From the NCBI RefSeq assembly GCF_017356035.1, contig NZ_JAFIQX010000004.1, forward strand, positions 558,001-622,000: DNA of 64,000 nt, in the 5' to 3' direction. Of the stretch, positions 2,645 to 63,505 are shown in pieces; within the stretch, counting starts at the first letter, position 1, and each line of letters begins with the position of its first letter. The notes below the pieces were generated by a model. It saw only the letters and a program-made list of their open reading frames with translations. It was not told the origin of the DNA and did no database searches. A program made the position numbers and the translations under genes. The stretch is from Longitalea luteola. Lineage in GTDB: Bacteria > Bacteroidota > Bacteroidia > Chitinophagales > Chitinophagaceae.

Positions 2645-2766
2645 GTTTGTTGTTTGTGGTTTGTTGTTTGTAGTTTGTCGTTGCTCAATGACAGGGCGCC
2701 CGCGAATAACCGGATGCTTCGAATCAGGCGTAACCACAAACCACAAACCACAAACCATAAACTAAC
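2645..2766. repeat. Inverted heptamer array (word GTTTGTN / AACCACA)
   Basis: Five in-phase heptamers GTTTGTN occupy 2645-2679, starting 1 bp after the permease stop. Five complementary heptamers (AACCACA, AACCATA, AACTAAC) occupy 2732-2766 and overlap the ubiD-like stop codon. The arms can pair across a 52-nt spacer. The element fills the gap between two convergent genes and could act as a bidirectional terminator. Confidence 0.8.
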
Positions 2767-4684
2767 TTACGATTGCTTCTTCCCCATACATCTGGTCTTT
2801 GAACTTTAAGGATGGCGAAGGAATAAATTCACCGAGGCCCAGCGTATTCCATTTTTCATCGACTGAAGCAATGGTTTTATCATCGGCTACGATAATGTTG
2901 GGCCAGTCGCGCTGAAAATCGTCGAGCTCTTTTGTTTTAATGGTACCATCGAAGCCCATGCAGGCCCAGGTTTTACCAGGGATCTGGCGGGCAGGCTGCT
3001 GTACCAGAACGCTATCCCGGCGGGGATCGAGGTTGTTACAGAACCGCCATAAGGCAACCGGCAGGTCATTGGCATCTACCGTATGCTCTACATACAAGAC
3101 CATTTTAATGCCTTCGATCATACCGGTAGCGCATAACTGCTGATGCAGTTCGCGGATATGCAATTTGCGGTTCTTTTCAACAGAAATGATCAAACAGGGA
3201 ATATGTATGGCCGGCAGCGCATCATTGATGCCCTTTATTTCCGGGAATTGTTGCTGCAACAGCTTTTTATCGAACCTGGTGCTTAATACCGGAAACTCAA
3301 ATGCCGGATCGGTTTCTTCATCGAATTTCCGCGTTCCATCGATACACATTTTGCCGCCAAAGCCCAGCTTGCTGCAACTGTGGTCCAGCACATCCATAGG
3401 TCCCTGTGACAGGTAGATATCGGTGGCCGGATTCAGATTGGCAAATACGTATTGCGCCAGCTTTTCGTAATCCTGGATTTTGACGCCTTCGTCGGCAAGC
3501 ACCAGGATCTTGTTGAACATCATTTGACCGGCGCCCCACATGGCATTCATTACTTTTTGTCCCTGACCGGCATATTCTTTATTGATCTTGGTGATCACCA
3601 GATTGTGAAAAACCCCCTCGATAGGCATATCCATATCAACGATCTCAGGCACCATGGTCATTTTAATAGGCGCCAGGAAAATGCGTTCGGTAGCTTTGCC
3701 CAGCCAGGCATCTTCCTGCGGCGGAATTCCAACAATAGTAGCCGGGTACACCGGATTCTTTTTGTGGGTAATAGCGGTAATATGAAAGCGCGGATACCAG
3801 TCGGGCAATGAATAATAGCCGGTATGATCGCCAAACGGTCCCTCCCAGATCAGTTCATCATTGGGGTCTACATACCCTTCAATCACAAAATCAGCGTCGG
3901 CAGGCACTTCTATTTCGGGCTGGGTAATACATTTAACCAGTTCTACTTTTTTCTTACGCAGAAAACCGGCCAGCATATATTCATCTACATTCTCCGGCAG
4001 CGGTGCTGTTGCAGAATATGCATATACGGGGTCGCCACCCAATGCTACAGCCACCGGCATTCTTTTGCCAAGCTTTTTGTATTCATTGAAATGGCGGGCG
4101 CTAACTTTATGCTTGTGCCAGTGCATGCCCGTTAAGGCAGGTCCAAACACCTGCATACGGTACATGCCCACATTGCGGGTATTGGTGTTGGGATCTTTCG
4201 TATGAATAACAGGCAGGGTCACGAACGGACCGCCATCTTTTGGCCAGCAGGTAATCACCGGCAGTTTCGAGATATCCGGTTGCGGCATGATCACTTCCTG
4301 GCAGGCTCCCCGACCGCTTTTTACTTTTGGCATCCAGGAGGCAAACTGCGACAATTTGGGCAGCACTTTCAATTTATCGATGATACTTTCTTTGGGCGAA
4401 GCAAGTAAGTGAAACAAGCTTTCAATTTCGCGCGCTACATCGTCGAGTTGTTGAACCCCCAACGCCAGGCACATTCTTTTTTCACTGCCATAGGCATTCA
4501 TGAGCACAGGAAAATCGTAGCCGGTGTTTTCAAACAACAGGGCTTTGCCACCGCCCGTAGTTTTACTAATTCTATCGGTAATTTCTGCTATTTCCAATTT
4601 CGGGTCTACATAGGATTTGATACGCACCAGTTCACCTGCCTGCTCCAACGTATCAATAAAATGCTGCTGATTTCTATATGACAT
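2762..4684 (-). CDS. UbiD family decarboxylase (possibly menaquinone pathway)
   Basis: This 640-aa protein belongs to the prenylated-FMN-dependent UbiD (de)carboxylase family. It shows EGPFGDHTGYY, the region carrying catalytic acidic residues, plus GKATERIFLAPIK and SCSKLGFGGKMCIDGT. It is longer than E. coli UbiD (about 490 aa), as is usual for the Bacteroidota form. Because Bacteroidota make menaquinone rather than ubiquinone, a role in menaquinone (futalosine-type) decarboxylation is plausible but not shown here. No flavin prenyltransferase (ubiX) gene is in the window. The ATG at 4684 is the first in frame. The product should be cytosolic; no signal peptide is seen. Confidence 0.85.
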   Translation of the reverse strand: MSYRNQQHFIDTLEQAGELVRIKSYVDPKLEIAEITDRISKTTGGGKALLFENTGYDFPVLMNAYGSEKRMCLALGVQQLDDVAREIESLFHLLASPKESIIDKLKVLPKLSQFASWMPKVKSGRGACQEVIMPQPDISKLPVITCWPKDGGPFVTLPVIHTKDPNTNTRNVGMYRMQVFGPALTGMHWHKHKVSARHFNEYKKLGKRMPVAVALGGDPVYAYSATAPLPENVDEYMLAGFLRKKKVELVKCITQPEIEVPADADFVIEGYVDPNDELIWEGPFGDHTGYYSLPDWYPRFHITAITHKKNPVYPATIVGIPPQEDAWLGKATERIFLAPIKMTMVPEIVDMDMPIEGVFHNLVITKINKEYAGQGQKVMNAMWGAGQMMFNKILVLADEGVKIQDYEKLAQYVFANLNPATDIYLSQGPMDVLDHSCSKLGFGGKMCIDGTRKFDEETDPAFEFPVLSTRFDKKLLQQQFPEIKGINDALPAIHIPCLIISVEKNRKLHIRELHQQLCATGMIEGIKMVLYVEHTVDANDLPVALWRFCNNLDPRRDSVLVQQPARQIPGKTWACMGFDGTIKTKELDDFQRDWPNIIVADDKTIASVDEKWNTLGLGEFIPSPSLKFKDQMYGEEAIVS

Positions 4685-4700
4685 GGCGCAAAGGTAAGCT

Positions 4701-4860
4701 GCTAATGTGATAATTTGCTAATGTGCTGATTTGCTAATTTGCCAGTAAGTAAAAGAGAGAATGATTAACAAGAAATGACAAAGCCCGGAAGAAAGTGGCA
4801 CCCAATTTCTTCCAGGCTTTCCATTGGCTTATTATTACATTAGCTAATGAGCAAATTGCC
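4701..4860. repeat. Octamer array with inverted arm
   Basis: Five in-phase octamers of type GCTAATGT/GATAATTT lie at 4701-4740. A shorter complementary arm, including ACATTAGC, lies at 4836-4860 next to the DUF6089 stop codon. Confidence 0.65.
4781..4819 (-). terminator. Hairpin downstream of the DUF6089 gene
   Basis: AAGCC-C-GGAAGAAA (4781-4794) pairs with TTTCTTCC-A-GGCTT (4806-4819): 13 bp with one mismatch and an 11-nt loop. On the minus strand it follows the 4862 stop. The T-run is weak, so intrinsic termination is likely but not certain. Confidence 0.5.
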
Positions 4861-4861
4861 T

Positions 4862-5737
4862 TTACAGCACTTTCGGACATCCCAATTGGTTCCTACCGCC
4901 CCGATAGCGGCCGCCAAATGCTTTGCCGCTGCCACCATTACGGGAACCCAGCCCAACGTACAGCGTGAAGCCGGTAAAATAATACCAGTCCTTATATTTT
5001 GAACCACCGCGTACCGAACCTTCAGCGGGATATGTTGTTGCATTGTCTTTTAATTCATCACCCCGGTAGGCCATGTCAATCGCTTTCGATCCCCTTGCCT
5101 GGCCAAGCGCAATCTGGTCGACATAGGTTTTACTTACGTCATCCAGGTAATCCGTAAAGGTTTTACGTAAGGTCACTTCGTATGACAGCACCGTATTATC
5201 ACTGATCCTGAATTTTAATCCCACCCCTACCGGAATGGCAAACTGGGTGAGTTTATAAGGTTTGCGATCGGGATATTCCGCCAGGCCCTGGCCTTCGGTG
5301 CTGAGCGGTTTCAGGAAAACTTTATTGCCCAGGGTATCGTATGCATATGGGTTGAAATGAAACACCGTTAAACCACTGTATATATATGGAGAGATCTTTC
5401 TTTCTTCCAGGTTCAGCAGGGTGTATTCTAACAGTAAACTACCTTCATTGATCTTTGAAACATAGCTCAGGTTGCGTGCCCGTAACATGGGATCGCTGCT
5501 CTTTTTATCATCCCCTTCAATAGTGCCGTGATTATACGCCAGGCGCAGAGCCAGGTGTGGCGAAAGATCGTATTTGAGACCCGCGCCAAAAGCAAAATTT
5601 GATTGTTCTAAAGTAAACTGGTGGTCTTGTAAATCGCCCGCATAATTGGAAAGTCCGCCGAATAGGGTAACGTGAAAGCGTTGTTGAGACACAGCTATAA
5701 CCGGGCAAAAAATGCTTAATAGCAAAAGTTTTCGCAT
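4862..5737 (-). CDS. DUF6089-like outer-membrane beta-barrel protein
   Basis: The 291-aa product has a signal peptide (MRKLLLLSIFCPVIAVSQ). It continues FHVTLFGGLSNYAGDLQ, then alternating amphipathic strands typical of a small outer-membrane barrel, such as AFGAGLKYDLSPHLALR and VGVGLKFRISDNTVLS. It ends with strand-forming YYFTGFTLYVGLGS and a short basic glycine-rich tail. This layout matches the DUF6089 family of Bacteroidota; no biochemical function is known to me. It lies upstream of the UbiD gene on the same strand but is separated from it by a probable terminator and a repeat array. Confidence 0.7.
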   Translation of the reverse strand: MRKLLLLSIFCPVIAVSQQRFHVTLFGGLSNYAGDLQDHQFTLEQSNFAFGAGLKYDLSPHLALRLAYNHGTIEGDDKKSSDPMLRARNLSYVSKINEGSLLLEYTLLNLEERKISPYIYSGLTVFHFNPYAYDTLGNKVFLKPLSTEGQGLAEYPDRKPYKLTQFAIPVGVGLKFRISDNTVLSYEVTLRKTFTDYLDDVSKTYVDQIALGQARGSKAIDMAYRGDELKDNATTYPAEGSVRGGSKYKDWYYFTGFTLYVGLGSRNGGSGKAFGGRYRGGRNQLGCPKVL

Positions 5738-5863
5738 GCAAATGGTTTTAATGAATGTTCAGAGTAGTTTCCCGGGATAGCGGATCGCGTGAATTATTAT
5801 CGTAAAGGGTAGATACGGTAAATTTTGATCGGGGGTTGGTAAGCAAGATTCAAGCCAAAACTT

Positions 5864-5910
5864 AATGTGATAATTTGATAATGTGAGAATGTGAGAATTG
5901 AAATACAGGC
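5864..5910. repeat. Octamer array (AATGTGAT type) with GAAATACAG motif
   Basis: Four in-phase octamers (AATGTGAT, AATTTGAT, AATGTGAG twice) lie at 5864-5895, followed by GAAATACAGGC at 5900-5910. The same nonamer is found at three other octamer elements in this window. Confidence 0.7.
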
Positions 5911-6031
5911 TTTGCGAACTGGCGATGTGTTAGAAATTACGGGTGTCTTACCGTAGCCTCAGGCGCTAGGTGCCGGAAAACAGGTTTGTGGACCTTCAGG
6001 GCGTTATTACATGAACTGATTAGCTAATTGG

Positions 6032-6673: not shown

Positions 6674-6783
6674 ACACTATGGTAGCTTCTTTTTTTATAA
6701 AAAGAAGGCGAAAAATTACTCCATAGCATTGATTTGGAAAACTAAAATTGCGCAAACGATTGATACGGTCAATTTACAGATGT

Positions 6784-6867
6784 ACTAATATGCTAATTAT
6801 AATGCTCCTTCGCATAAGCCTGTATTTCATTAGCACATTAGCATATTAGCTAATTAGCACATTGGCA
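6784..6867. repeat. Octamer inverted array (CATTAGCA) with apex GCCTGTATTTC
   Basis: A degenerate left arm (6784-6805) pairs with five in-phase octamers of type CATTAGCA at 6828-6867. CTGTATTTC (6820-6828) is the reverse complement of the GAAATACAG motif seen at 5900. It lies downstream of fabF. Confidence 0.7.
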
Positions 6868-6916
6868 TCCTACATTCTCTGGTCCCGCTTCATCACTCAC
6901 CTTTCCTACTAACAAT

Positions 6917-8183: not shown

Positions 8184-8279
8184 AATCGGCAATCGTGAAT
8201 CGGCAATCGACAATCGGCAATCGACAATCGGCAATCGACAATCGGCAATCGAGAATCAAGAATCGTATCGACAATCGTC
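8184..8279. repeat. Heptamer array, word AATCGNN
   Basis: Eleven heptamers run in strict phase at 8184-8260. Most are AATCG plus GC, AC, TG or AG, and one is AATCAAG. A 12-nt irregular unit and one further heptamer follow, ending at 8279. It sits between the fabF start codon and the 8335 array, an exception to the usual 3'-end location. Confidence 0.9.
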
Positions 8280-8334
8280 AACAATACCGTTTAAGCAAAT
8301 TTTCATGCCTTCCGCCTTAAGCACTCAGCCTTTA

Positions 8335-8474
8335 GCGTTTCGCGTTTTGCGTTTTTCGTTGAGCGTTCAGCGTTGAGCGTTTTGCGTTTCGCGTTGAGCG
8401 TTTTGCGTTTTGCGTTCAGCGTTTTGCGTTTTGCGTTGAGCGTTTTGCGTTCAGCGTTTCGCGTTTTGCGTTTT
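8335..8474. repeat. Heptamer array, word GCGTTNN, exactly 20 units
   Basis: The 140 bp divide into 20 consecutive heptamers without an indel. Each is GCGTT plus TT (10 copies), GA (4), CA (3) or TC (3); unit 4 has T for the first G. It lies between divergent fabF and hxlR. Because 7 is not a multiple of 3, the frames crossing it encode 7-residue peptide repeats that are not real proteins. Confidence 0.95.
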
Positions 8475-9018: not shown

Positions 9019-9072
9019 CTGGTAGTAAATGGCAAGCAGGATCCCTAAGCCCTACTCACCATTTACTACCAG
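9019..9072. terminator. Inverted repeat between convergent hxlR and S10 peptidase genes
   Basis: CTGGTAGTAAATGG (9019-9032) pairs perfectly with CCATTTACTACCAG (9059-9072) across 26 nt. The same heptamer words (CTAGTAG, TAAATGG, CTGGTAG) recur at 33157-33184. No T-run follows, so its role as a terminator is inference. Confidence 0.5.
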
Positions 9073-9078
9073 TTATTG

Positions 9079-9158
9079 CATTATCACATTATCACATTAT
9101 CACATTATCACATTATCACATCATCACATTATCACATCATCACATTATCACATTAGCA
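9079..9158. repeat. Octamer array, word CATTATCA, ten units
   Basis: Ten octamers in phase: seven CATTATCA, two CATCATCA and a final CATTAGCA. It ends 2 bp before the stop codon of the S10 peptidase gene. Confidence 0.92.
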
Positions 9159-9160
9159 TT

Positions 9161-10838: not shown

Positions 10839-11621
10839 ATGCAAGTACGCACTGTTGCTGAAATGATCGCCGCCGGCACGCCGCCGGATATACTTTTTTG
10901 GGTTGGCTGTTCAGGAAGTTTCGATCAGCGGGCGCAAAAGATCACGAAGGCCTTCGCTACCATACTCACAAAAGTGGGGATCAATTTTGCCGTGCTGGGT
11001 AAAGAAGAATGCTGTACGGGTGACCCAGCCCGCCGGGCCGGCAATGAATTCATGTTCCAGATGATGGCTTATCAGAACATTCAAATACTGAATGGTTACG
11101 GTATCAAAAAAATTGTAACGGCCTGTCCGCACTGTTTTAACATCCTTAAAAACGAATACCCTGAGCTGGGTGGTAATTACGAAGTGATCCACCACACTAC
11201 CTTTTTACAGCAGTTGATCGATGAGGGCAGGATCATCTTAAAAGAAGGCGGTTCTTTCAAAGGCAAGCGTATTACCTACCATGATAGTTGTTACCTGGGG
11301 CGGGCCAATGATATTTATGAAGCGCCCCGCAAAGTACTGGAAGCGCTGGATGCTGAACTGGTAGAAATGAAACGCTGCCGCAGTAAGGGACTGTGTTGCG
11401 GAGCAGGTGGCGCGCAAATGTTCAAAGAAGAAGAAAAAGGCAATCTGCGCATCAACCAGGAACGTATACAGGAAGCGCTGGAAACAAAGGCACAGATCGT
11501 AGCTGCCGCCTGTCCGTTTTGCAATACCATGCTCACCGATGGCGTGAAGCAAAAAGAGCAGGAAGAGTCGGTAAAAGTGTTTGATGTTGCTGAACTGATA
11601 GCGGCGAGTATGGAAAGCTAA
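10839..11621 (+). CDS. (Fe-S)-binding protein with two CCG domains
   Basis: The 260-aa protein has two cysteine-rich CCG-type domains as in heterodisulfide reductase HdrB, GlpC and LutA. The first runs from FWVGCSGSF through GKEECCTGDPARRAGNE to VTACPHCFN. The second runs from YHDSCYLGR through GLCCGAGGAQMF to AAACPFCNT. These CX(n)CCGX(n)CXXC motifs bind Fe-S clusters in electron-transfer oxidoreductases. In Bacteroidota such a protein is usually paired with an adjacent ferredoxin/FAD partner, but none is present here. Start 10839 (MQVRTVAEMIAAG) is preferred over 10773 because a promoter-like TATATTTG lies between them. The stop codon runs into an octamer array. Confidence 0.85.
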   Translation: MQVRTVAEMIAAGTPPDILFWVGCSGSFDQRAQKITKAFATILTKVGINFAVLGKEECCTGDPARRAGNEFMFQMMAYQNIQILNGYGIKKIVTACPHCFNILKNEYPELGGNYEVIHHTTFLQQLIDEGRIILKEGGSFKGKRITYHDSCYLGRANDIYEAPRKVLEALDAELVEMKRCRSKGLCCGAGGAQMFKEEEKGNLRINQERIQEALETKAQIVAAACPFCNTMLTDGVKQKEQEESVKVFDVAELIAASMES

Positions 11622-11659
11622 TGTGATAATGTGATAATGTGATGATGTGATGATGTTAT
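11620..11659. repeat. Octamer array, word AATGTGAT, five units
   Basis: Three AATGTGAT, then GATGTGAT and GATGTTAT, in strict phase. The first unit begins inside the TAA stop codon of the Fe-S protein gene. Confidence 0.85.
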
Positions 11660-12043
11660 AATTAATACACTTAAATAAATTCAAATATTCATCTTCAGTT
11701 TTTGTAACATTTTATAATGCTTAACTACCTATAGCTGTCGGCGATCTGTAAGAAATGTAGCCGGTCACAGAATCACTTTATTATTATCAGTAATATCAAA
11801 ACAACATTAGGTCAGGTGATATTACAATAAAGCCTAATCCAGTGCGTTTTGAATACGCATGTGTATATTTGTAGAGTTTACCATTGCATCTACATAACCA
11901 GAAAGGCATTTAATCAGGAAAAAAGAAGTTGTTGATAAATACCCGTATTTATTATACAGCTTGTTATTCTATAAACCTTGGGATTAATTGTAGAAATACA
12001 TTTTAATCTCTTTTAAGAGACCTTAAGTAAACCCTTATCATCC
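11660..12043. other. Intergenic leader region of the ABC/OmpA operon
   Basis: This stretch of about 380 bp has no convincing reading frame. TATATTTG at 11864-11871 is a possible -7 promoter element for the downstream operon, giving a leader of about 170 nt. TTTTG 12 bp upstream of the box is too close to be a normal -33 element. Nothing else was recognised. Confidence 0.35.
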
Positions 12044-22947: not shown

Positions 22948-23004
22948 AATGTGATGATATGATGTGATGATGTGATAATGTGATGATGTGATAATGAAAT
23001 ACAG
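22948..23004. repeat. Octamer array (AATGTGAT/GATGTGAT) with GAAATACAG
   Basis: Octamers run from 22948, 1 bp after the lactonase stop, with one 5-nt irregularity at 22956-22960. They end in GAAATACAG (22996-23004). Confidence 0.75.
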
Positions 23005-23034
23005 ACAATGAGCAGTAGACAATTGGCAACGATA

Positions 23035-23174
23035 AAGGCAAAAGGCGCAAGGCTGAAGGCTCAGGGCAAAAGGCTCAAGGCTCAGGGCAAAAGGCTCAAG
23101 GCTGAAGGCTCAAGGCTGAAGGCTCAGGGCAAAAGGCTCAGGGCAAAAGGCTCAAGGCTGAAGGCTCAAGGCTG
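23035..23174. repeat. Heptamer array, word AAGGCNN, exactly 20 units
   Basis: The 140 bp consist of 20 heptamers in strict phase: AAGGC plus TC, TG, GC or AA, with AGGGCAA as a recurrent variant. A degenerate 21st unit follows. The same word builds the 63415 array. Confidence 0.95.
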
Positions 23175-23220
23175 AAGGAAATGGCGGGTGGTTGGTTATT
23201 GGTTTTGAATGTCGCGAGAT

Positions 23221-23283
23221 ATTCACCATTCACCATTCACCATTGACCATTCACCATTGACCATTCACCATTGACCATTCACC
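23221..23283. repeat. Heptamer array, word ATTSACC, nine units
   Basis: Nine in-phase units alternate ATTCACC and ATTGACC, then ATTCAAT. It lies 12 bp from the trhO stop codon and is the third distinct word in one 350-bp gap between convergent genes. Confidence 0.93.
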
Positions 23284-23294
23284 ATTCAATGCGC

Positions 23295-24388: not shown

Positions 24389-24437
24389 CAAAACGTTCTG
24401 TTTGCGGTAATAGTGAAGATTAAGCTTAAATTGTTTG

Positions 24438-24580
24438 TGTTTGGGGTTTATGGTTTGTCGTTTGTTGTTCATTCATTCGACATCTCCGGATACATTCTTC
24501 TTTCCTAAAATTCAGGCTGTTGAGAGAACAAGGTGATGTAAAAGCGCGGCAGCAACTACAAACCATAAACTATAAACATA
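24438..24580. repeat. Inverted heptamer array (GGTTTGT / AACCATA)
   Basis: The left arm, about five NGTTTNN-type heptamers, spans 24438-24472. The right arm AACTACA, AACCATA, AACTATA lies at 24554-24574 and continues degenerately to 24580. It lies downstream of the DUF5686 gene. The same word family is used at 2645, 36148 and 45849. Confidence 0.75.
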
Positions 24581-24602
24581 AACGATTGAATAAACGGTAA
24601 AC

Positions 24603-28059: not shown

Positions 28060-28102
28060 TTAATTGATTGATTGAATTATTAATTATGCGCCCCAACCTT
28101 TT

Positions 28103-28215
28103 AATGTGATAATTCGATAATTTGATAATTTGCTAATGTGCTAATTTGCTAATGTGCTATTCGTGTCGTCGCGGCTTTATTTTCATTAGCACATTAGCAC
28201 ATCAGCTAATTAGCT
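28103..28215. repeat. Octamer inverted array (AATTTGCT / CATTAGCA)
   Basis: Seven in-phase octamers lie at 28103-28158 and four complementary octamers at 28184-28215, separated by a 25-nt GC-containing spacer. The right arm overlaps the penicillin-acylase stop codon, so the hairpin would lie at the 3' end of that transcript. Confidence 0.85.
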
Positions 28216-31873: not shown

Positions 31874-32021
31874 GTTGCAGGTTGCAGGTTCCAGGTCACA
31901 CGGGCTGTTACCAGTTCCTGGTTTCCGGTTACCAGCTTCCAATTACCGGATCATTGTTAAAATCCCAGATCGCAGCATTCAAAAAAACGATCCTTTGCAA
32001 CCTGTAACATGCAACTTGTAA
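31874..32021. repeat. Heptamer arrays (GTTGCAG, GTTACCA) with inverted arm
   Basis: Four heptamers start right after the cupin stop (31874-31901). Six more of type GTTACCA/GTTCCTG follow at 31907-31948, and complementary TTTGCAA, CCTGTAA-type heptamers at 31994-32021. It fills the gap before the convergent bioF-like gene. Confidence 0.85.
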
Positions 32022-32044
32022 CATATTCTTTTGACTACCGACAT

Positions 32045-33946: not shown

Positions 33947-33948
33947 TT

Positions 33949-34043
33949 AATGTGATAATTAGATAATGTGATAATTTGATAATGAAATACAGCCGCGACG
34001 CGGCATTATCACATTATCAAATCTGCTAATTATCACATTGCAT
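33949..34043. repeat. Symmetrical octamer hairpin, 5 + 5 units
   Basis: Five octamers (AATGTGAT type, last AATGAAAT) lie at 33949-33988. A 15-nt spacer holds the GC palindrome GCCGCGACGCGGC (33992-34004) and part of GAAATACAG. Five complementary octamers follow at 34004-34043. It lies between the convergent miaE and SMUG2-like genes and overlaps the latter's stop codon. Confidence 0.9.
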
Positions 34044-36132: not shown

Positions 36133-36147
36133 TAGATCGTTGCTTCA

Positions 36148-36255
36148 GTTTGTAGTTTGTGGTTTGTAGTTTGTGGTTGCTGCCGCGCTTTGAGGTTCGA
36201 AATTAAATTGGAAGTTCTGTATGAAGGAATAACAAACCATAAACCACAAACCATA
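36148..36255. repeat. Inverted heptamer array (GTTTGTR / AACCAYA)
   Basis: Four heptamers GTTTGTA/G lie at 36148-36175 and three AACCATA/AACCACA at 36235-36255, between convergent genes. It uses the same word family as 2645-2766. Confidence 0.85.
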
Positions 36256-36284
36256 AACGTTTACAAGTATTCCCGTTACACTGT

Positions 36285-38393: not shown

Positions 38394-38420
38394 TTTATGA
38401 TTTGTTATTATAGGTAGAAG

Positions 38421-38484
38421 TTACAGGTTACACGTTTCAAGTTGCAGGTTTTTCCCTGCAGCGCTGTAACCTGCCACTTGTAAC
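38421..38484. repeat. Inverted heptamer array (TTACAGG / CTGTAAC)
   Basis: Four heptamers of form TTNCANG lie at 38421-38448 and three complementary heptamers at 38464-38484, with a spacer containing CTGCAG. It lies downstream of rlmB. Confidence 0.8.
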
Positions 38485-41535: not shown

Positions 41536-41595
41536 AGTACTTTTTGTTTGTTGGAATTGAATAGAATATTAATGGGTAAATATATGAGATAAAAA

Positions 41596-41721
41596 TTCTA
41601 AGTTATAAGTTTTAGGTTATAAGTGCTAAGTTTTAATTGCTGAATTGTGTAATTGTTGATTACTTGTGGACATCCGCATACTTGTACTAACTTATTACTT
41701 AATACTTATCGCTTACTACTT
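41596..41721. repeat. Inverted heptamer array (TTATAAG / NNNACTT)
   Basis: Six heptamers (TTCTAAG, TTATAAG and relatives) lie at 41596-41637 and five heptamers ending in CTT at 41687-41721. It lies between metK and the GT5-like gene, next to the latter's stop codon. Confidence 0.75.
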
Positions 41722-41724
41722 TCA

Positions 41725-42537
41725 TCACTTTGTAAGATCGTGGTATAATTGGAGATAGTCAGTCAGGTCAGACTCGGCATTATAGGTGAGCACCTTTTTG
41801 CCTTTTACTTTACCAAACTCTTCCACCAGCTTTTTATCAACCTTGTCGGCGCCAAAGGTAATGGCATCGGCATATGTTGCACCACCGCGCATCATTGAGG
41901 TAGTGGTACCTTCTTTAAAAGGCTCCAGGTCTTTTTCTTTTACAAAAGAACTGATTGAAGCGATCTTCAGGAAATCATCACCCAGTTTTTCTTTATGGGC
42001 ATTGTTGCCAATGGTATAAATGACTTTGCTATGCGAGAACACCGGCTCTTTTTTGTAAGCGGTCTTTTGGTACAGAGGGATCAAACCGGTCATCCAGCCG
42101 CTGCAATGGATGATATCGGGCGGCCAGCCGAATTTCTTTACTGTTTCCAGGGCACCTTTACAGAAGAACACCGTACGCAGGTCATTATCCTCGAACCATT
42201 TTTCGCCTTCGTCGTGGAAAATAAATTTACGTTTGAACAGATCTTCATTGTCAAGGAAGTAAACCTGCAACCGCGCATTGGGTAAAGAAGCTACTTTAAT
42301 TTGAAGAGGATAATCGTCATTACCTACCGAAACATTAATGCCCGACAACCTAACCACTTCATGAAGGCGATGACGTCTTTCGTTGATAACCCCAAACCGG
42401 GGCATGATACAACGCACTTCAAAGCCATTTTCATTTGCCTTTATTGCCAACCGGTTAACCGTTTCGGAGAATTCCGTCAATTCCAGGTAGGGGGACATTT
42501 CGTTAGCAATAAATAAAATTCTTTTCTTTGTCAGCAT
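41725..42537 (-). CDS. Glycogen/starch synthase-like protein, N-terminal domain only
   Basis: The 270-aa protein matches the N-terminal catalytic (GT5) domain of glycogen synthase: KKRILFIANEMSPYLELTEF, VRCIMPRFGVINERRHRLHE, PDIIHCSGWMTGLIPLYQK and MRGGATYADAITF. The whole C-terminal GT-B half, with the KPSRFEPCGL-type nucleotide-sugar site, is absent. The KTGGL loop typical of true synthases is replaced by E-L-T-E-F. It ends normally (HDLTK), so it looks like a stable short form, which I recall being common beside panC in Bacteroidota. Synthase activity is doubtful; a regulatory or accessory role is inference. Confidence 0.82.
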   Translation of the reverse strand: MLTKKRILFIANEMSPYLELTEFSETVNRLAIKANENGFEVRCIMPRFGVINERRHRLHEVVRLSGINVSVGNDDYPLQIKVASLPNARLQVYFLDNEDLFKRKFIFHDEGEKWFEDNDLRTVFFCKGALETVKKFGWPPDIIHCSGWMTGLIPLYQKTAYKKEPVFSHSKVIYTIGNNAHKEKLGDDFLKIASISSFVKEKDLEPFKEGTTTSMMRGGATYADAITFGADKVDKKLVEEFGKVKGKKVLTYNAESDLTDYLQLYHDLTK

Positions 42538-44053: not shown

Positions 44054-44123
44054 GTTACAAGTCACAGGTTTCAGGTTACTGGTGCACTGCACCTTGCAAC
44101 TTGCAACCTGAAACCTGTAACTT
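44054..44123. repeat. 70-bp palindromic heptamer array, 5 + 5 units in one phase
   Basis: The 70 bp divide into ten heptamers with no phase break. The first five are of form GTNNCNN and the last five are the complementary GNAACCT type. The dyad centre is GGTGCA-CTGCACC. It forms a near-continuous hairpin between panD and the flippase-like gene, ending 20 bp before ATG 44144. Confidence 0.9.
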
Positions 44124-45166: not shown

Positions 45167-45641
45167 TGTCATCACTACCCGGATATGCACCCTGAATGAA
45201 GCATTGCACAGACTGGGTCAATGGCGCATAACCGGAAAAACAGTGGCATTTACCAACGGGGTATTTGATATCCTGCATCGAGGTCATATCTTCTCGCTTT
45301 CACAGGCAGCTGCTGAAGCCGATTATCTGGTAGTAGGTTTGAATTCCGACGCCAGCACCAAACGTTTAAAGGGCGATAGCCGCCCGGTAAATGATGAGCA
45401 GTCGAGAGCCCTGGTATTGGCGGGCCTCATCATGGTAGACATGGTTGTTATTTTTGAAGAGGATACTCCGCTGAACCTCATTACGACGCTTAAACCGGAT
45501 GTATTGGTGAAAGGCGGCGATTATACCCTTGAACAGATCGTAGGCGCTAAAGAAGTAATAGCGGCTGGGGGTAAAGTAATTATCAATCCAATTGTAGAAG
45601 GCTTTTCAACGACGGGCATCATTCAGAGAATGAGTTCATAG
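45153..45641 (+). CDS. rfaE2: Heptose-1-phosphate adenylyltransferase (HldE C-terminal domain type)
   Basis: The 162-aa nucleotidyltransferase has FTNGVFDILHRGHIFSLSQA (HxGH motif), YLVVGLNSDASTKRLKGDSR and PVNDEQSRALVLAGL, with VLVKGGDYTLEQIVGA and FSTTGIIQRM near the end. RfaE2 forms ADP-D-glycero-beta-D-manno-heptose for LPS core. As a stand-alone domain it lacks the kinase half of E. coli HldE, which must be elsewhere. It overlaps the flippase-like gene by 14 bp. Its last three codons and stop are part of the heptamer word AGTTCAT. Confidence 0.92.
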   Translation: MRKADVITTRICTLNEALHRLGQWRITGKTVAFTNGVFDILHRGHIFSLSQAAAEADYLVVGLNSDASTKRLKGDSRPVNDEQSRALVLAGLIMVDMVVIFEEDTPLNLITTLKPDVLVKGGDYTLEQIVGAKEVIAAGGKVIINPIVEGFSTTGIIQRMSS

Positions 45642-45681
45642 TTCATAGTTTACAGTTCACAGTTTAAAGTTTAAAGTTCAT
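45633..45681. repeat. Heptamer array, word AGTTYAN, overlapping the rfaE2 C-terminus
   Basis: Seven in-phase heptamers (AGTTCAT, AGTTTAC, AGTTTAA and so on). The first unit begins inside the rfaE2 coding sequence, six bases before its TAG. Confidence 0.85.
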
Positions 45682-45721
45682 AGACAGTTACTCAATTATT
45701 TAGTTGCTACGTTATTATAAG

Positions 45722-45801
45722 TAACTGAATAACTTACGAACTGAATAACTTACGAACTGAATAACTTACGAACTGAATAACTCAGGAACTGAATAACCAA
45801 A
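45722..45801. repeat. Octamer array (GAACTGAA-TAACTTAC), ten units
   Basis: Ten in-phase octamers alternate in two types to give a 16-bp super-repeat over 80 bp. It is the second of three word families in the 247-bp gap between rfaE2 and the DUF4294 gene. Confidence 0.9.
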
Positions 45802-45848
45802 AAGCAGAGGTCTGAAAAACAATTATGAGCTGAGGAATTTGAACAAAC

Positions 45849-45890
45849 ACAAACGACAAACGACAAACTACAAACCACAAACTACAAACT
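45849..45890. repeat. Heptamer array, word ACAAACN
   Basis: Six in-phase heptamers run into the stop codon of the DUF4294 gene. They are the reverse complement of the GTTTGTN family at 2645 and 36148. Confidence 0.88.
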
Positions 45891-46530
45891 ACATTCTGTG
45901 TAGTCGTTCCACTTCCTGCACGATCATTTCCATTTCACGCTCGTCGCCATTGGGATTGTAGGGCTGTTTGAGATTGCTGCCGAATACAAAGGCCACCGTT
46001 TGCCAGGCCCTGGCAGTAAACCCACCTTTATATTCCTTGATGATGTTGTAGCAGTTGTTACCGGTTTGCCGGTTGATGAGTTTCATTAATACTTTTCCCT
46101 GGTAGATAGAAAGTTCGCTCAACGGTTCAGCAAACTGCTTTTTCAATTCTTTTTCCCGGGAATGTATATATTTCCTTTTTTCCTTGTCGGGCATTTTGGC
46201 AATGCGGGCATTGATGTCGTTCATGATGGCGCCTGCCCGGCGGGCGTATGGATAGCAAACATAAACCGCATTGCGCAACCGCGTCCATTCCTGCCTTCTT
46301 TTCAATAAATGCTTTGGATAGGGAACCTGTACCCGGAAATATTCGAGGGTTTGCACCGGCACATATTCGCCGCCGTGGATCTCTGCAGGAACGGGGATCG
46401 TATCGTTGGGACCTAACTGTGGTAAGGGAATGGAATCGGGAGCCGTTTGGCCAAATGCTGAACCCATAGTTACAGCTACGAGCGCCAAAACCGCCACAAA
46501 ACCTTTGAATATTTTCCAATTTGCAGTCAT
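45889..46530 (-). CDS. DUF4294 domain-containing exported protein
   Basis: The 213-aa protein (ATG 46530) has a signal segment (FKGFVAVLALVAVTMGSAFG). A Pro-rich stretch (DSIPLPQLGPNDTIPVPAEI) follows, then the DUF4294 core: VYVCYPYARRAGAIMNDINA, KREKELKKQF-like basic helix, GKVLMKLINRQTGNNCYNII and AWQTVAFVFGSNLKQPYNPN. The function of the family is unknown to me. It is periplasmic by prediction. It is convergent with rfaE2 across three repeat arrays. Confidence 0.8.
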   Translation of the reverse strand: MTANWKIFKGFVAVLALVAVTMGSAFGQTAPDSIPLPQLGPNDTIPVPAEIHGGEYVPVQTLEYFRVQVPYPKHLLKRRQEWTRLRNAVYVCYPYARRAGAIMNDINARIAKMPDKEKRKYIHSREKELKKQFAEPLSELSIYQGKVLMKLINRQTGNNCYNIIKEYKGGFTARAWQTVAFVFGSNLKQPYNPNGDEREMEMIVQEVERLHRM

Positions 46531-46760: not shown

Positions 46761-46846
46761 AGTTTATAGTTTATAGTTCAAAGTTTACAGTTTTCCGGCT
46801 TTGGAAGTCATAACTGTAAACTTTGAACTTAAAACTTTGAACTTAT
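46761..46846. repeat. Symmetrical heptamer hairpin, 5 + 5 units (AGTTTAT / AACTTTG)
   Basis: Five heptamers lie at 46761-46795, a 16-nt spacer follows, then five complementary heptamers at 46812-46846 overlapping the ccmF-like stop codon. It would form the 3' hairpin of the cytochrome-maturation transcript. Confidence 0.9.
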
Positions 46847-49263
46847 AACAACTTTACTCTGCGGATAATACTTATTACAAAACCTGCTATCATCAGAATG
46901 ACTCCCAGCCAAACGAGATTAATGAAGGGGAACTGCAGTACTTTCAGGGCCAGGAACGGCGTCAGGCGCGAAGATTCCTTCACACTGATCTCGAGATGTT
47001 TGTCATCGGCAATACGAGTGAGGCCAATGGCCAGCCCCTCCGAATACAATGTATCTATAATATATTGAGCGCCATTATTCTGAACGTAAAACACCGGTTT
47101 GGCCTTCAGCTTTTGCTGGTCCTTGGTGATCACCGTTAGGTTGGCCATGATAGCTGTATCCCTGCTGGTGAACTTGTGCTTTTCATCATTCGGATTTACA
47201 GTTACACTGTCAAGGATCATAAAACCTTCGGAATAATAGACGGTATCGCCGGTCTTTATGACATGATTTTTGAATTGCGATGTATCAGACCCTTCCTCCA
47301 ATGAGCTCGCATGGTTCACATAGCTGAAAATATCCTTATCCCAGTAATGACGCGAATCGGGGTTGTTCGACATCCCTTCCTGTCCCTTGGTATTTTTGAT
47401 GAGGTCGGGATATAAGGTGAATTTGTCGGAACCGTCTTTTCGCTCCATATCAACCTGGAAGTAGGTAATGTTGCCGTTCTCATTCACCGAGTCTTTAACA
47501 TAAGTGGCCCAGAACTTACCCATATCGGTCTTTACACCGCGGAAAAGGGTCAGGTTCTCAAAGCCCTCTTTCGGCCGGTCAGGACCGAAGTTCAGCGGGT
47601 TAAAGGTATTCACTGACACCACTTCCTTTTTAGAAGAAGAGATCAGGATACCAACCAGCATCAGGCCGAAGCCCAGGTGCGCTACAGAAGCGCCCGCGGC
47701 CTTCAGTTTGCCGTTCAGGCCTATAAAAATATAGGCGGTATTGGCAATTACGGCATACACGGAAGCAAACAGGGCCAGGTGAATGGCTGCCAGGAAGCCT
47801 AATCCGTATTTATTATAATTGATATTACCGAAATAACTGATCGAAGCCGATACCAGCACGGAGATGACTGTAGCCCACAACACCTTTTTGACGAAATATG
47901 CCTTTGCCGTGTTCTTGTACTTGAGGTACTGGCCGATGGCAGTCAACACGCCCACCACAATGGCCACAAAGATCTGGATACGGTTGTAAGGAAACTCTTT
48001 GTCTTCGCCGATCACGAGGCTGGTGCCGAATAGTTTATTAATAATTGGGAAAGAAGTAGGAACAATGATTGCCATGGCCGACAGGAACAGAACCAGCGAA
48101 CCGATGAACATCCAGAATTCCCGGCTGTTGAATTCCTCTTCCCTGGCAATATGCGGGATCCTTTTATACCGCACGATCAGCAGGGCCAGCGCCGGAACAA
48201 TAAAGGTGAACAGCCAGGCACGCAGCTGCCAGTTCATTCCCGAGTCAACGAAAGCATGTACCGAGGTATCCTGCAGATCGCCGCTGCGGGTAAGATAGGT
48301 GCTGTACATTACCAGCAGAAAACTGAGTATAAAGAATACATGGGTAGCCCGTAGGGAATGCCCGGTGGAATTGTAAATAAGCTGGGTATGAATACCCGCA
48401 ATCATGATCAGCCAGGGCACCAGGGAGGCGTTCTCAACGGGGTCCCAGGCCCAATAACCACCAAAGGTGAGAGATTCATATGCCCAGGCGCCGCCCATCA
48501 TAATACCCAGCCCAAAGATGGCTCCGGAAAATAATGACCAGGGTAAGGCCTGCTTTGTCCAGCCGCCAAAATCTTTTTTCCATAAACCGGCGATGGAGAA
48601 GGCAAAAGGCACCAGGGTGCTGGCGTAACCCAGGAACAGCACCGGGGGGTGGATCACCATCCAGTAGTTCTGCAACAACTGGTTGAGACCGTTTCCATTA
48701 TGTATTTTAGGCTGGCTCAGGTAATCGGCCGCAGCAAAGATGGGTGCATCCTGAAACTGATGCCGGGTGAGTAAGAAGGGACTGCTTCCTACCCGTACAT
48801 CGAAAACATACACACCCAGGACCATGGTAGCCAGGCAAAGCTGGGCAAAACTGATCACCGTCATTACCGGCGCTTCCCATTTTTTGGCCGTACGGATCAA
48901 TACCATCCCTATTAAGGCATGCCATACCGCCCACAACAGGAAAGCACCCTCCTGCCCTTCCCAGATACTGCTCAGCAGGTACTTGGGCTTCAGGGACCGG
49001 TCGGAGTGGTTCCAGGCGTAAAAATATTCGTGATAATGATTGGCAATGATGAAAAATAACAGGCCGAAAACAGCCAGTATAGAACCGGCATCGATCAAAA
49101 ACGCAATACGCGCCAGCTTTTTCCAGCCATCGTGGTCTTGGGGGGTGGTAGCATTTGAAGCCTTGAAATAGGCAATAGTGGCTACTAAAGACGCTACCAG
49201 GGAAAGCACAACCAGGAAATGTCCCAACTGACCGGGTAACAGGTGTTCACCGATATACTTCAT
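46843..49263 (-). CDS. ccmF: Cytochrome c assembly protein, CcmF/CcsA-type haem lyase
   Basis: The 806-aa polytopic membrane protein has the haem-handling WWD-like motif FGGYWAWDPVENASLVPW. Conserved His residues lie in WHALIGMVLIRT and VIHPPVLFLGYA, and a large periplasmic insert lies in the C-terminal third before a last helix. CcmF is the core of the system I haem lyase that attaches haem to apocytochrome c. The ccmE-like gene is 9 bp upstream, so the pair forms an operon. Other ccm genes are not in the window. The symbol is by family; the Bacteroidota version combines CcmF and CcsA features. Confidence 0.9.
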   Translation of the reverse strand: MKYIGEHLLPGQLGHFLVVLSLVASLVATIAYFKASNATTPQDHDGWKKLARIAFLIDAGSILAVFGLLFFIIANHYHEYFYAWNHSDRSLKPKYLLSSIWEGQEGAFLLWAVWHALIGMVLIRTAKKWEAPVMTVISFAQLCLATMVLGVYVFDVRVGSSPFLLTRHQFQDAPIFAAADYLSQPKIHNGNGLNQLLQNYWMVIHPPVLFLGYASTLVPFAFSIAGLWKKDFGGWTKQALPWSLFSGAIFGLGIMMGGAWAYESLTFGGYWAWDPVENASLVPWLIMIAGIHTQLIYNSTGHSLRATHVFFILSFLLVMYSTYLTRSGDLQDTSVHAFVDSGMNWQLRAWLFTFIVPALALLIVRYKRIPHIAREEEFNSREFWMFIGSLVLFLSAMAIIVPTSFPIINKLFGTSLVIGEDKEFPYNRIQIFVAIVVGVLTAIGQYLKYKNTAKAYFVKKVLWATVISVLVSASISYFGNINYNKYGLGFLAAIHLALFASVYAVIANTAYIFIGLNGKLKAAGASVAHLGFGLMLVGILISSSKKEVVSVNTFNPLNFGPDRPKEGFENLTLFRGVKTDMGKFWATYVKDSVNENGNITYFQVDMERKDGSDKFTLYPDLIKNTKGQEGMSNNPDSRHYWDKDIFSYVNHASSLEEGSDTSQFKNHVIKTGDTVYYSEGFMILDSVTVNPNDEKHKFTSRDTAIMANLTVITKDQQKLKAKPVFYVQNNGAQYIIDTLYSEGLAIGLTRIADDKHLEISVKESSRLTPFLALKVLQFPFINLVWLGVILMIAGFVISIIRRVKLL

Positions 49264-49692: not shown

Positions 49693-50094
49693 CTGAAATG
49701 TTTATCGTAACGCCTTGAAGACGTGGCACAATTGTTTATGCACCGCAAAGTTAGTTCAAAAACATATTGAGGGATGGATAGATTTAATTTATAAGGTAAT
49801 TGATAAATCTTTAACATTTCAAGAGATTGTCACCGGTTTCCGGGCACCTGATTCGGGAAGGTTAGTTCTCAGGTAAATATGAGCATACGCCTGGCTTAGC
49901 CGGTAACTGGTAACCCGGCAACTGGTAACCGGCAACTGGTAACCGGCAACTGGTAACCGGCAACTGGTAACCAACCCGTAAGCGGGCAGCCATTCCTAAC
50001 AAACGTAAGCTTGTTAGCTATAATTTTTTTGCGGCCTCCGGTTCCTGTGTTACCTTGCATCCCGTTTTTTTTAGCGTAGTATGATATATGATAT
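49693..50094. other. Divergent intergenic region ccmE / arginase-family gene
   Basis: About 400 bp without a gene. It holds the GGTAACC heptamer array at 49902-49972. TATGATATATGATATATG just before 50095 is a short direct repeat that includes the start codon. Nothing else was recognised. Confidence 0.5.
49902..49972. repeat. Heptamer array, alternating GGCAACT / GGTAACC, ten units
   Basis: Ten units in near-perfect phase (unit 2 has one extra C). The last eight alternate strictly to give a 14-bp super-repeat. Confidence 0.93.
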
Positions 50095-57165: not shown

Positions 57166-57193
57166 AGTTACAGGGTACAGGTTACAGGGTAAA
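57166..57193. repeat. Heptamer array, word GGNTACA
   Basis: Four in-phase heptamers (AGTTACA, GGGTACA, GGTTACA, GGGTAAA) lie just after the S8 protease gene. Confidence 0.75.
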
Positions 57194-57220
57194 ACCGGTA
57201 ATTTGTACCCTGTTTATTTT
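57184..57220 (+). terminator. Terminator-like hairpin after S8 protease gene
   Basis: ACAGGGTA (57184-57191) pairs with TACCCTGT (57206-57213), followed by TTATTTT. The left arm is built from the heptamer array, a case where array and terminator coincide. Confidence 0.7.
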
Positions 57221-58002: not shown

Positions 58003-58018
58003 TGAATGTGATAACTGG

Positions 58019-58858: not shown

Positions 58859-58879
58859 AGGGCTTATGCCCGTTGTTTA

Positions 58880-58919
58880 CATTATTACATTATCACATCA
58901 TCACATTATCACATTGCCA
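58880..58919. repeat. Octamer array (CATTATCA), five units
   Basis: Five in-phase octamers end 6 bp before the pcm stop codon. The same word occurs at 9079 and 34004. Confidence 0.85.
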
Positions 58920-58925
58920 CGTGGA

Positions 58926-59582: not shown

Positions 59583-59659
59583 AAACGGCACAAAGATAGT
59601 TCAATTGTGGTTAGCTCGGGCCTTCTGTTTAAGATGAAAATGAACTGGTTATAGTTTGT

Positions 59660-59715
59660 GTTACCAGTCACCGGGTTCCGGTTTCCAGGCATCCGGCGAC
59701 TGGTAACTGGTAATT
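59660..59715. repeat. Heptamer array (GTTACCA ... GGTAACT), eight units, palindromic
   Basis: Eight heptamers in one phase. The first half (GTTACCA, GTCACCG) is complementary to the second (GGCGACT, GGTAACT), so it folds on itself like 44054-44123. It ends at the aldo/keto-reductase stop codon. Confidence 0.85.
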
Positions 59716-60608: not shown

Positions 60609-60848
60609 GCAGCTTACTGTTTTCTGTTTTACAATAATCGGGATTAAATTAATACAATACAAACTTTAGCCTTCACAAGTTTGTGCCATTCAATCTGCTG
60701 CCTGCAAATGGGGAAATGGCAAAAAAGGAAGTTTTTTTGTTAATAAGTAGCAGGAGCGCTTATTTTGTGTCCTTTACAAAAATCAATAAAACACCTCTAT
60801 TTTGCCCATTATTCCGGTCAATCTGTATATCCGTTAAAAAACAACTCA

Positions 60849-61565: not shown

Positions 61566-61584
61566 TGTAACCGAAATATTTATG

Positions 61585-61624
61585 AAGAGGCCGTCTCAAA
61601 CAATAATTTTGAGACGGCCTCTTT
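61585..61624. terminator. Strong intrinsic terminator after methyltransferase gene
   Basis: AAGAGGCCGTCTCAAA (61585-61600) pairs with TTTGAGACGGCCTCTT (61608-61623), a perfect 16-bp stem with a 7-nt loop and T-run. Confidence 0.92.
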
Positions 61625-61727
61625 TATTGAGAACCTGTCTTATAAGGTTTTATAAACTACTTCCATAAACGTACATGACCGGCCGATACCTGTGCAGTCA
61701 TTTAATTCTAAGCCGGTTCAAACCCCT

Positions 61728-62945: not shown

Positions 62946-62953
62946 AAATTTAA

Positions 62954-62973
62954 ACATTCAAATGTTTCGATAT
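62954..62973. promoter_or_regulatory. Putative ArsR-type operator between arsR-like and MFS genes
   Basis: ACATTCAAATGTTTCGATAT is 16/20 identical to the palindrome upstream of the regulator at 63364-63383. It lies just before the MFS start and overlaps the alternative ATG 62957. Confidence 0.5.
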
Positions 62974-63047
62974 ATTAGTCAATAGTGATCCTGTAGCAAG
63001 CCGGTTATGGTTTGCCAACCTTCATTCATTAAAAATTATTGTTAACG

Positions 63048-63323
63048 CTACCCTTCCAGGGAGCTTAAAAAGGCAATGTACTCGTTGAGCACTGGTTTGT
63101 TCAGCACGTATTTGAGGTTGCGGCCTTCTTTTTCAGGCAGCAAGAGATCTGCATCTACGAGTTGTTTCAGGTGGTGTGATATAGATGGCTGGGCAAGGTC
63201 CAGCATGTCATGTATTTCTGCACAGTATAAACATTCCCGCCTTTTCCTGAACTGTTGCAGGATCTGGATGCGGCTGGGATCGCTTATCGCCCGGGAAATC
63301 TTCTCTATTTTTTTACTATCCAT
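63048..63323 (-). CDS. ArsR-family winged-helix repressor
   Basis: The 91-aa protein starts at ATG 63323 (MDSKKIEKISRAISDPSRIQ). The ArsR/SmtB fold is clear: SDPSRIQILQQFRKRRECLY, recognition region LAQPSISHHLKQLVDADLLL and wing EKEGRNLKYVLNKP. A Cys pair in CLYCAEI, at the position of the alpha-3 metal site (CVC in ArsR), could bind arsenite, heavy metals or react with thiols. It is followed on the same strand by the MFS gene, its likely target. The in-frame TTG at 63335 is less likely. Confidence 0.9.
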   Translation of the reverse strand: MDSKKIEKISRAISDPSRIQILQQFRKRRECLYCAEIHDMLDLAQPSISHHLKQLVDADLLLPEKEGRNLKYVLNKPVLNEYIAFLSSLEG

Positions 63324-63363
63324 ACTAGCTCCCAATTGAATTGCGGGACAAATATAAATAGAT

Positions 63364-63383
63364 ACATCTAAATATTTCGATGT
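63364..63383. promoter_or_regulatory. ArsR-type operator palindrome upstream of the regulator gene
   Basis: ACATCTAAATATTTCGATGT is palindromic at 18 of 20 positions and lies about 40 bp before the arsR-type start. A second copy precedes the MFS gene, consistent with autoregulation. Confidence 0.6.
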
Positions 63384-63414
63384 TTTTTTTTAGGGGAAGA
63401 AGATTTTAACAAAA

Positions 63415-63505
63415 AAGGCGCAAGGCTAAAGGCGCAAGGCTGAAGCCTAAAGGCTGAAGGCTGAAGGCGAAAGGCTAAAGGCTGAAGGCGCAAGGCTGAA
63501 GGCGC
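63415..63505. repeat. Heptamer array, word AAGGCNN, 13 units
   Basis: Thirteen heptamers in phase (AAGGC plus GC, TA, TG, GA; one AAGCCTA). It uses the same word as 23035-23174, 40 kb away. It lies upstream of the arsR-type gene. Confidence 0.93.

Follow-up and report, generated by a model that had tools for sequence, protein, structure and literature searches.

Heptanucleotide short tandemly repeated repetitive (STRR) sequences and small dispersed repeats are features of heterocystous cyanobacteria, in which heptads form arrays, some of them with small repeats embedded. Heptad repeats have been noted in scattered bacteria and their function is unsettled. We describe here intergenic arrays of 7-bp and 8-bp words, in part arranged as inverted pairs, in a 64,000-nucleotide stretch of DNA from Longitalea luteola (the window), which encompasses bases 558,001-622,000 of contig 38 (653,214 bp) in a genome of 7.30 Mb assembled in 43 contigs. 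A typical element is built from tandem copies of a word of 7 or 8 letters, followed by some 10 to 100 bases of spacer or core and then by the reverse complement of that word; it lies immediately 3' of a stop codon or fills the intergenic space of a convergent gene pair. The reading that we favor, to which the sequence comparisons give about an even chance, is that these would be structure-first hairpin elements of gene 3' ends that replace ordinary terminators and have been spread and rebuilt from a small vocabulary of words.

The closest described repeats are the intergenic GGGANTN and GGGGA(C/T)T heptads of Xanthomonas and Nostoc, which were studied as quadruplexes (Rehm et al. 2015, PMC4692102). 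The sections of that report cited here give 70 and 75 inverted heptad pairs in two Xanthomonas, nearer to the 5' gene and few of them between divergent genes, and report that in most cases the heptads of the two are flanked by the same genes and vary in sequence; they leave the repeats without a settled function and cite an over-representation of heptamers together with a hypothesis of slippage related to the polymerase footprint. As far as those sections describe them, the Xanthomonas and Nostoc heptads resemble the window arrays in being period-7 intergenic words with fixed and variable positions and, in part (125 of 399 array gaps here), in forming inverted pairs near the 3' ends of genes. 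They consist of one G-rich word family per genome, whereas here there are many words and also octamers, replacement of the word in both arms, cores, and few ordinary terminators. The sequence requirement for a quadruplex is lacking as well: four GGG runs on one strand are found in one of the 216 arrays of the contig and in none of the 32 of the window, and at least one GGG run in 54 and 4, respectively.

According to the part of Kaasalainen et al. (2015, PMC4476775) that deals with it, the P6b stem of the Nostoc tRNA-Leu group I intron is made of complementary heptads, and the whole stem has been swapped for another repeat class with a similar secondary structure kept. A stem of complementary heptads and its wholesale replacement are common to both cases, but P6b is one intron locus with two classes while here many intergenic loci, situated behind genes, are concerned. 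MacGregor (2015, PMC4679880) described, in the pages drawn upon here, arrays of the heptamer TAACTGA in five Bacteroidetes, some with other heptamers alongside; these are also intergenic, but they are direct and not inverted, and in the main genome they are mostly found just before start codons. Repetitive extragenic palindromic (REP) sequences and bacterial interspersed mosaic elements (BIMEs), in the account cited (PMC3733652), are likewise palindromic, lie downstream of genes, mostly in convergent and same-strand gaps, and are thought to act as RNA; unlike the window elements, they have 20-40 bp units. Those units carry a GTAG or CGTC tag and are often accompanied by RAYT transposases, and the text of that account does not mention heptamers. 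The window elements are of the same kind as the Xanthomonas and Nostoc heptads, the P6b stem and the TAACTGA arrays. Our literature search, which had most subscription journals outside its reach, returned nothing on such elements in Chitinophagaceae, and as far as it went the many-word vocabulary including octamers, the joint replacement of arms across orthologous gaps and the terminator shortage are new. Orthologous gaps in several species make it possible to ask which feature is conserved; it is the hairpin of repeats and its position, with the word left to vary.

Periodicity was analyzed in 400 intergenic segments, together 137,036 bp, of the contig that carries the window, using genes called by a simple codon-usage caller with a threshold that was later relaxed and that still missed some genes. 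Strongly periodic stretches account for 1.47% of the intergenic DNA at lag 7 and 0.75% at lag 8, and periodicity is also present at the multiples 14, 16, 21, 24, 28, 35, 42, and 49; all remaining lags from 2 to 30 give at most 0.08%. Coding sequence shows 0.01% at lag 7, none at lag 8, and 0.02-0.04% at 14, 21, 28, and 42, and no strong periodicity was found in first-order Markov copies. A looser detector identified 135 period-7 and 81 period-8 arrays between the genes of the contig, 0 to 6 at periods 4-6 and 9-13, three of each of the two periods inside genes, and 7 and 10 in five Markov replicates summed. In the window it detected 32 arrays (22 of period 7 and 10 of period 8) spread over 21 gaps, a number that is a lower bound since an alternating 14-mer found at 49900-49972 by Tandem Repeats Finder is absent from its list; the latter program returned 74 rows, overlapping periods included, with arrays of period 7 or 8 (and 14, 16, 21, or 28). 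An earlier note, made by reading the window alone, had claimed about 30 such arrays, and the words that it named were all located by Tandem Repeats Finder: GTTTGTN at 2645, AATCGNN at 8184, GCGTTNN at 8331, CATTATCA at 9079, AAGGCNN at 23049 and 63414, ATTSACC at 23221, AGTTYAN at 45633, and GGNAACN at 49902. Its description of fixed and variable positions within each word agrees with the finding that 101 of the 113 period-7 arrays of at least four units have 4 to 6 of the 7 columns at 80% consensus or higher. Its view that the period is what stays constant was borne out by the scan that it had proposed, in which periods 7 and 8 far exceed all others in the intergenic DNA of the contig and also of the relatives, seven separately assembled genomes that have stretches with the same two periods.

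The same note considered the words to be locus-specific and the arrays not to be one dispersed repeat, and here the data tell otherwise. Ten 5-base seeds, counted in both orientations, suffice for 80% of the 135 period-7 arrays, compared with 36% for column-permuted units (maximum of 30 runs, 40%), and four are enough for 74% of the 81 period-8 arrays, compared with 26% (maximum, 33%). The words form a small vocabulary common to many loci and belong to several dispersed families with recurring words, some of them with conserved cores. Single-linkage clustering, which put 120 of 125 elements in two clusters, one per period, was abandoned in favor of the seeds and their column-permuted control.

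Three features were found beyond those of the earlier note: a location at gene 3' ends, reverse-complementary pairing, and a low number of ordinary terminators in the gaps with arrays. In the first 40 bases past stop codons, taken as four 10-base bins, arrays occupy 17.5, 22.9, 24.6, and 18.9% of the sequence, whereas the four bins preceding starts give 1.2, 2.8, 4.1, and 4.7%. Gaps of 40-1500 bp contain arrays in 93 of 190 convergent cases, in 122 of 301 and 97 of 284 same-strand cases, and in 39 of 210 divergent cases. When two arrays of equal period share a gap, 147 of 277 pairs reach a score of 12 in the inverted sense, as opposed to 52 in the direct sense and 23 against random arrays, and 125 of the 189 gaps holding such pairs include an inverted one. 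Seven of eight window gaps picked for visible paired arms fold better than dinucleotide shuffles (z from -2.2 to -7.2), and the GTTTGT fold is a chain of six-pair helices separated by single mismatches, one per heptad; the order of the variable letters at 2645-2762, judged by eye, is not mirrored between the arms. Two other properties were tried and rejected. A G/T bias of the gene-proximal arm (G+T exceeds 0.6 in 110 and falls short of 0.4 in 30 of the 258 arrays near stops) is seen alike near starts (20 and 7 of 49), and stop codons in every frame (7.56 per 100 bases, versus 6.18 in shuffled sequence and 5.13 on the other strand) do not account for the periods because the enrichment is slight and periods 5, 10, and 11 would be allowed as well.

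Orthologous gaps were compared within the soil bacteria Niastella and Longitalea, a set consisting of the window's genome (G000), N. vici (G001), Niastella sp. OAS944 (G002), Niastella caeni (G003), N. soli (G004), a genome taken as N. koreensis GR20-10 (G005; one contig of 9,033,684 bp), N. populi (G006), Longitalea arenae (G007), a 61% complete genome (G008), and N. yeongjuensis (G009). Syntenic blocks of seven relatives yielded 110 conserved neighbor pairs, 25 of them convergent. The gap at 2644-2761 has arrays in all eight genomes, with arms that pair at scores of 11 to 24, and its words are GTTTGT, GTTTAT, the 8-mer AGTTTGTT, AGTTTAA, AGTTCA, and GGTTACC; N. vici likewise has an AGTTCA-type pair at this gap. 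In 15 convergent orthologous gaps with at least three usable sequences (83 sequences from the window's genome and seven congeners), arms pair with their own partner at 11.31, compared with 8.32 when arms are permuted among species (standard deviation, 0.45; maximum of 5,000 permutations, 9.98). Six convergent gaps furnished 72 pairs of species that both have a hairpin there; the words differ in 53 of these pairs and are similar in 19. In GTTTGT-family elements, the proportion of GTTTA words in one arm correlates with that in the other (Spearman 0.62, P 0.005) in 19 elements that had been preselected for pairing, and for that preselection a within-family arm permutation was set aside. The covariation in the GTTTGT model (89.5% of cells paired, 82.3% when shuffled) was not used as proof because the alignment had been fitted to the model and included both strands of many elements. 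These comparisons, which the earlier note had suggested and which do reveal word replacement across species, indicate that in convergent gaps the two arms are often replaced jointly while place, pairing and period stay.

Ordinary terminators, defined by a detector of a hairpin followed by a T-run, were counted in convergent gaps of 40-400 bp. In eight genomes they are present in 44 of 71 gaps without arrays and in 13 of 90 gaps with arrays; every one of the eight points in this direction, and single-genome tests fall below 0.05 for N. soli, N. yeongjuensis, N. populi, and the window's genome, whose contig has 13 of 23 and 9 of 39, respectively (P 0.013). Another count, extended by five more stretches of the window's genome, gave 46 of 74 (62%) without arrays and 5 of 42 with an inverted pair, and no terminator was detected in shuffled convergent gaps. 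Of the properties of an intrinsic terminator, a stable hairpin was found in seven of the eight chosen window gaps, and a T-run directly after a compact hairpin was detected in no more than the 13 of 90 convergent gaps with arrays given above. The 113 orthologous convergent gaps of at least 40 bp comprise 57 with an array, 22 with a terminator, 9 with both, and 25 with neither. Some keep one state throughout and others are mixed: pair 403 has an array in every one of the eight genomes, pair 424 in all but one, whose gap is shorter than 40 bp, and pair 397 has a terminator in 7 of 7.

The features of the window are as follows; the strand is given where one applies, and arrays were detected by both Tandem Repeats Finder and the looser detector unless another basis is stated.

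2645-2682, + strand: GTTTGTN array, 5' arm of the hairpin of the convergent gap 2644-2761 (Tandem Repeats Finder; folds with 2732-2762, -46 kcal/mol, z -4.57)
2732-2762, + strand: ACAAACC array, 3' arm with the reverse complement word (tandem repeats and folding; gap compared in eight genomes)
4700-4746: 8-mer TAATNTGN array
5861-5902: 8-mer TAATGTGA array, then a GAAATACAG core
6823-6867: 8-mer CATTAGCA array with core TATTTCATTA, the reverse complement of TAATGAAATA (looser detector, core search)
8184-8281: AATCGNN array in a divergent gap
8331-8474: GCGTTNN array, without complementarity to the adjoining AATCG array
9071-9160: 8-mer CATTATCA array in a convergent gap
11619-11664: 8-mer TAATGTGA array immediately 3' of a + strand gene
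22948-23001: 8-mer GATGATGTGATAAT array with a terminal TAATGAAATACAG core (also core search)
23034-23180: AAGGCNN arrays
23217-23291: ATTSACC array
24433-24583, - strand: GTTTGT-family element, two arms around a core with GTTGCTGCCGCGC on the - strand (model R1 at 24446-24576, - strand, 58.4 bits; fold z -2.22, 3 of 200 shuffles as good)
28101-28219: hairpin of 8-mer TAATNTGN and CATTAGCA arrays in a convergent gap (both programs; fold -34.6 kcal/mol, z -4.08)
31874-32024: GTTGCAG and TGCAACC paired arrays between convergent genes (both programs; fold z -3.20; centroid without arm pairing)
33948-34033: 8-mer TAATGTGA array, TAATGAAATACAG core, GC inner hairpin and CATTATCA array (core search; fold -30.1 kcal/mol, z -5.35)
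36143-36261, + strand: GTTTGT-family element with the full conserved core (model R1, 103.6 bits, a seed member that matches by construction; fold z -4.92)
38412-38446: GTTACAG array
41593-41721: TAAGTTA and ACTTATT paired arrays (repeat detection; fold z -0.72, no better than shuffles)
44085-44123: TGCAACY array
45633-45893: AGTTYAN array, 16-mer AACTGAATAACTTACG array and ACAAACN array in a single convergent gap
46761-46849, - strand: AGTTTAT / AACTTTG paired arrays (both programs; fold -35.7 kcal/mol, z -7.16)
49900-49972: CCGGCAACTGGTAA (GGNAACN) array (Tandem Repeats Finder only)
57166-57195: TACAGGG array
58873-58923: 8-mer ACATTATC array
63414-63507: AAGGCNN array

Some families include a conserved core. 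The TAATGAAATACAG core has 30 exact copies in the genome and one for the reversed pattern. In the GTTTGT family the core follows the pattern GGTTGCTGCCGCGCTTTGAGG ... AAATTAATTTTGAACTCGCG ... AAGAACAAC in six species of the compared syntenic blocks, and a core conserved in three gaps was judged by eye for the GGTTACC family. Model R1, built for the GTTTGT family, has at E of 0.01 or less 45, 20, 68, 15, 14, 61, and 30 matches in G000 and G002 to G007, respectively, and one in the incomplete G008; these counts are rough, eight of the matches being seeds and both strands of one element often matching, and are lower bounds as the best 106 candidates per genome were scored, which also makes provisional the lack of any match in G001 and G009. 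Outside this set, four genomes have 1 to 6 weak matches and the other 25 none. No Rfam 15 family reached its gathering score in the window. A masked all-against-all BLAST of the gaps gave few links between cores (74 paralogous hits), and enriched 9- and 10-mers were mostly A/T-rich words and once-per-genome words common to all species; both approaches were discarded. Entire GTTTGT-family elements are found in tandem with a 168-bp period at about 71.7-72.8 kb of contig C196 of N. populi (L216, 1481-2538), and a similar series with a 173-bp period occupies 46745-47399 of contig C14 of N. caeni.

The mechanism that these elements suggest to us begins with the arms, which a large share of the arrays would represent and which would pair in the transcript as short helices, for instance six pairs and one mismatch per heptad. 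The resulting hairpin may mark the 3' end of the transcript, either by stopping transcription, alone or with a factor, or by protecting the end, and it would take the place of the usual hairpin-plus-T terminator. The elements would spread by copying, of which the shared cores may be a sign, and the arms could lengthen and renew by slippage in whole units, which would be harmless to pairing because a slip of one unit leaves the arms in register. Place, pairing and period would be kept, and the word would be free within the small vocabulary. The mechanism enforcing length and not sequence that the earlier note had postulated is a fair description of this, and it was not without precedent, as the cited sections of PMC4692102 and PMC4679880 attest. 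A more specific version, in which this lineage swapped many T-run terminators for interchangeable hairpin cassettes, with selection acting on place, pairing and period and with whole-unit slippage preserving function, is a possibility that we advance tentatively. If the terminator reading were true, heptad repeats would gain a job, the fixed period would have a reason, and the gaps would offer many natural replicates of one structure in different sequences.

Several observations weigh against the hairpin-terminator reading. As for pairing, an inverted pair is detected in 125 of the 399 gaps with any loosely detected array, the adjoining arrays at 8184 and 8331 are not complementary, the fold of 41595-41725 is no better than shuffles, and the centroid of 31874-32020 lacks the arms. 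As for location, 39 of the 210 divergent gaps do hold arrays. In the orthologous comparison, an arm's own partner is the best single one in 29 of 83 sequences only, the gaps are not independent, and little joint replacement is seen in same-strand and divergent gaps (7.69 versus 7.26, 7.04 versus 6.89, and 7.21 versus 7.00), whose arms were compared on their outer 60 bases, a design best suited to convergent gaps. Slippage by units was not seen, as the indel lengths that separate the two closest genomes are not concentrated at 7 or 8, at a divergence already too large to resolve unit gain and loss. As for terminators, a looser T-run rule reduces the contrast on the window's contig to 12 of 39 and 13 of 23 (P 0.062), of the 113 orthologous convergent gaps nine combine an array with a terminator and 25 have neither, and convergent gaps with an array and no inverted pair have terminators in 10 of 51, which either speaks against a role of pairing as such or means that the detector misses inverted partners. 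Finally, the cores cluster only weakly by species (8 of 26, where 3.7 would be expected; P 0.045 with the tandem copies counted), and the spread need not be recent.

Of the other explanations the one that survives best, although we think it unlikely, is that these are selfish miniature elements akin to REP/REPIN sequences or to cyanobacterial small dispersed repeats, moved by a protein, with inverted arrays as ends, which survive mainly behind genes as the least harmful place and cause terminator loss as a side effect of insertion. The conserved asymmetric cores at many loci of several species, as matched by model R1, and the 168-bp tandem copies of N. populi are what such elements would leave. 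An obvious mover is missing, since the genome has one Y1_Tnp gene (other mobility families were not searched), and by eye no empty site or target duplication was noticed, none having been sought systematically. The weak clustering of cores within species also fits poorly, and insertion alone does not explain arrays that stay in the same gaps while the word changes. The Y1_Tnp gene (contig C39, 257267-257602, L112) has arrays of several heptad and octad words in the gaps of its 3.3-kb neighborhood, as many gaps do.

Neutral replication slippage that favors steps of 7-8 bases, its products being tolerated behind genes and inverted partners arising through hairpin-templated copying, is decidedly less probable. 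It would be in line with the heptamer excess in many bacteria and the polymerase-footprint hypothesis, in the form in which the cited sections of PMC4692102 refer to them, and with the two thirds of array gaps that have no detected inverted partner; in pair 352, moreover, two close species differ greatly in array length, with a long TTAGCTGATTTGCTGA run in Longitalea arenae and three to four units in the window's genome. The shared vocabulary and cores, the joint replacement of both arms and the terminator shortage speak against slippage, and at the divergence at hand the indels are not in unit steps.

Very improbable, in our judgment, is that the arrays are binding sites of a protein that organizes the chromosome or blocks converging transcription or replication, with the period as its footprint: fixed spacing with partly fixed words would suit such sites, and CTCGCGA occurs at 0.080 per kb of intergenic DNA versus 0.028 per kb overall in the genomes compared, but many unlike words and two periods are hard to reconcile with one protein, and pairing and 3'-end position are left unexplained. 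An assembly artefact, a concern raised by the earlier note and a general one as repeats are often misassembled, has a negligible chance given the same two periods in separately assembled genomes, including one in a single contig, and the different words at the same gap across genomes.

The array trait is patchy in Chitinophagaceae. A total of 80 loci (1.41 Mb) from this family and allied genomes contain 92 period-7 and 33 period-8 arrays, with 0-9 at periods 4-6 and 0-4 at periods 9-13; seven of the loci, from Niastella and Longitalea, contribute 36 and 16, respectively, and 42 have no arrays. Among five array-rich loci of other genomes, inverted pairs between convergent genes were found in Pinibacter (L142, score 22), in G018 (L228, score 17), and, at the threshold of 12, in L147. 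Thirteen stretches of about 20 kb each from other orders, classes and phylum-mates gave two period-7 arrays and one period-8 array, too small a sample to establish absence.

As to the cores, the heptamer CTCGCGA is found in several that are otherwise unlike. The arms are unlike in two convergent pairs, 393 (in N. soli) and 447 (in N. soli, N. koreensis, and N. yeongjuensis), with GTGAGTN words on one side as opposed to words ending in TTGCC or CTGCC, and the core begins with CTCGCG.

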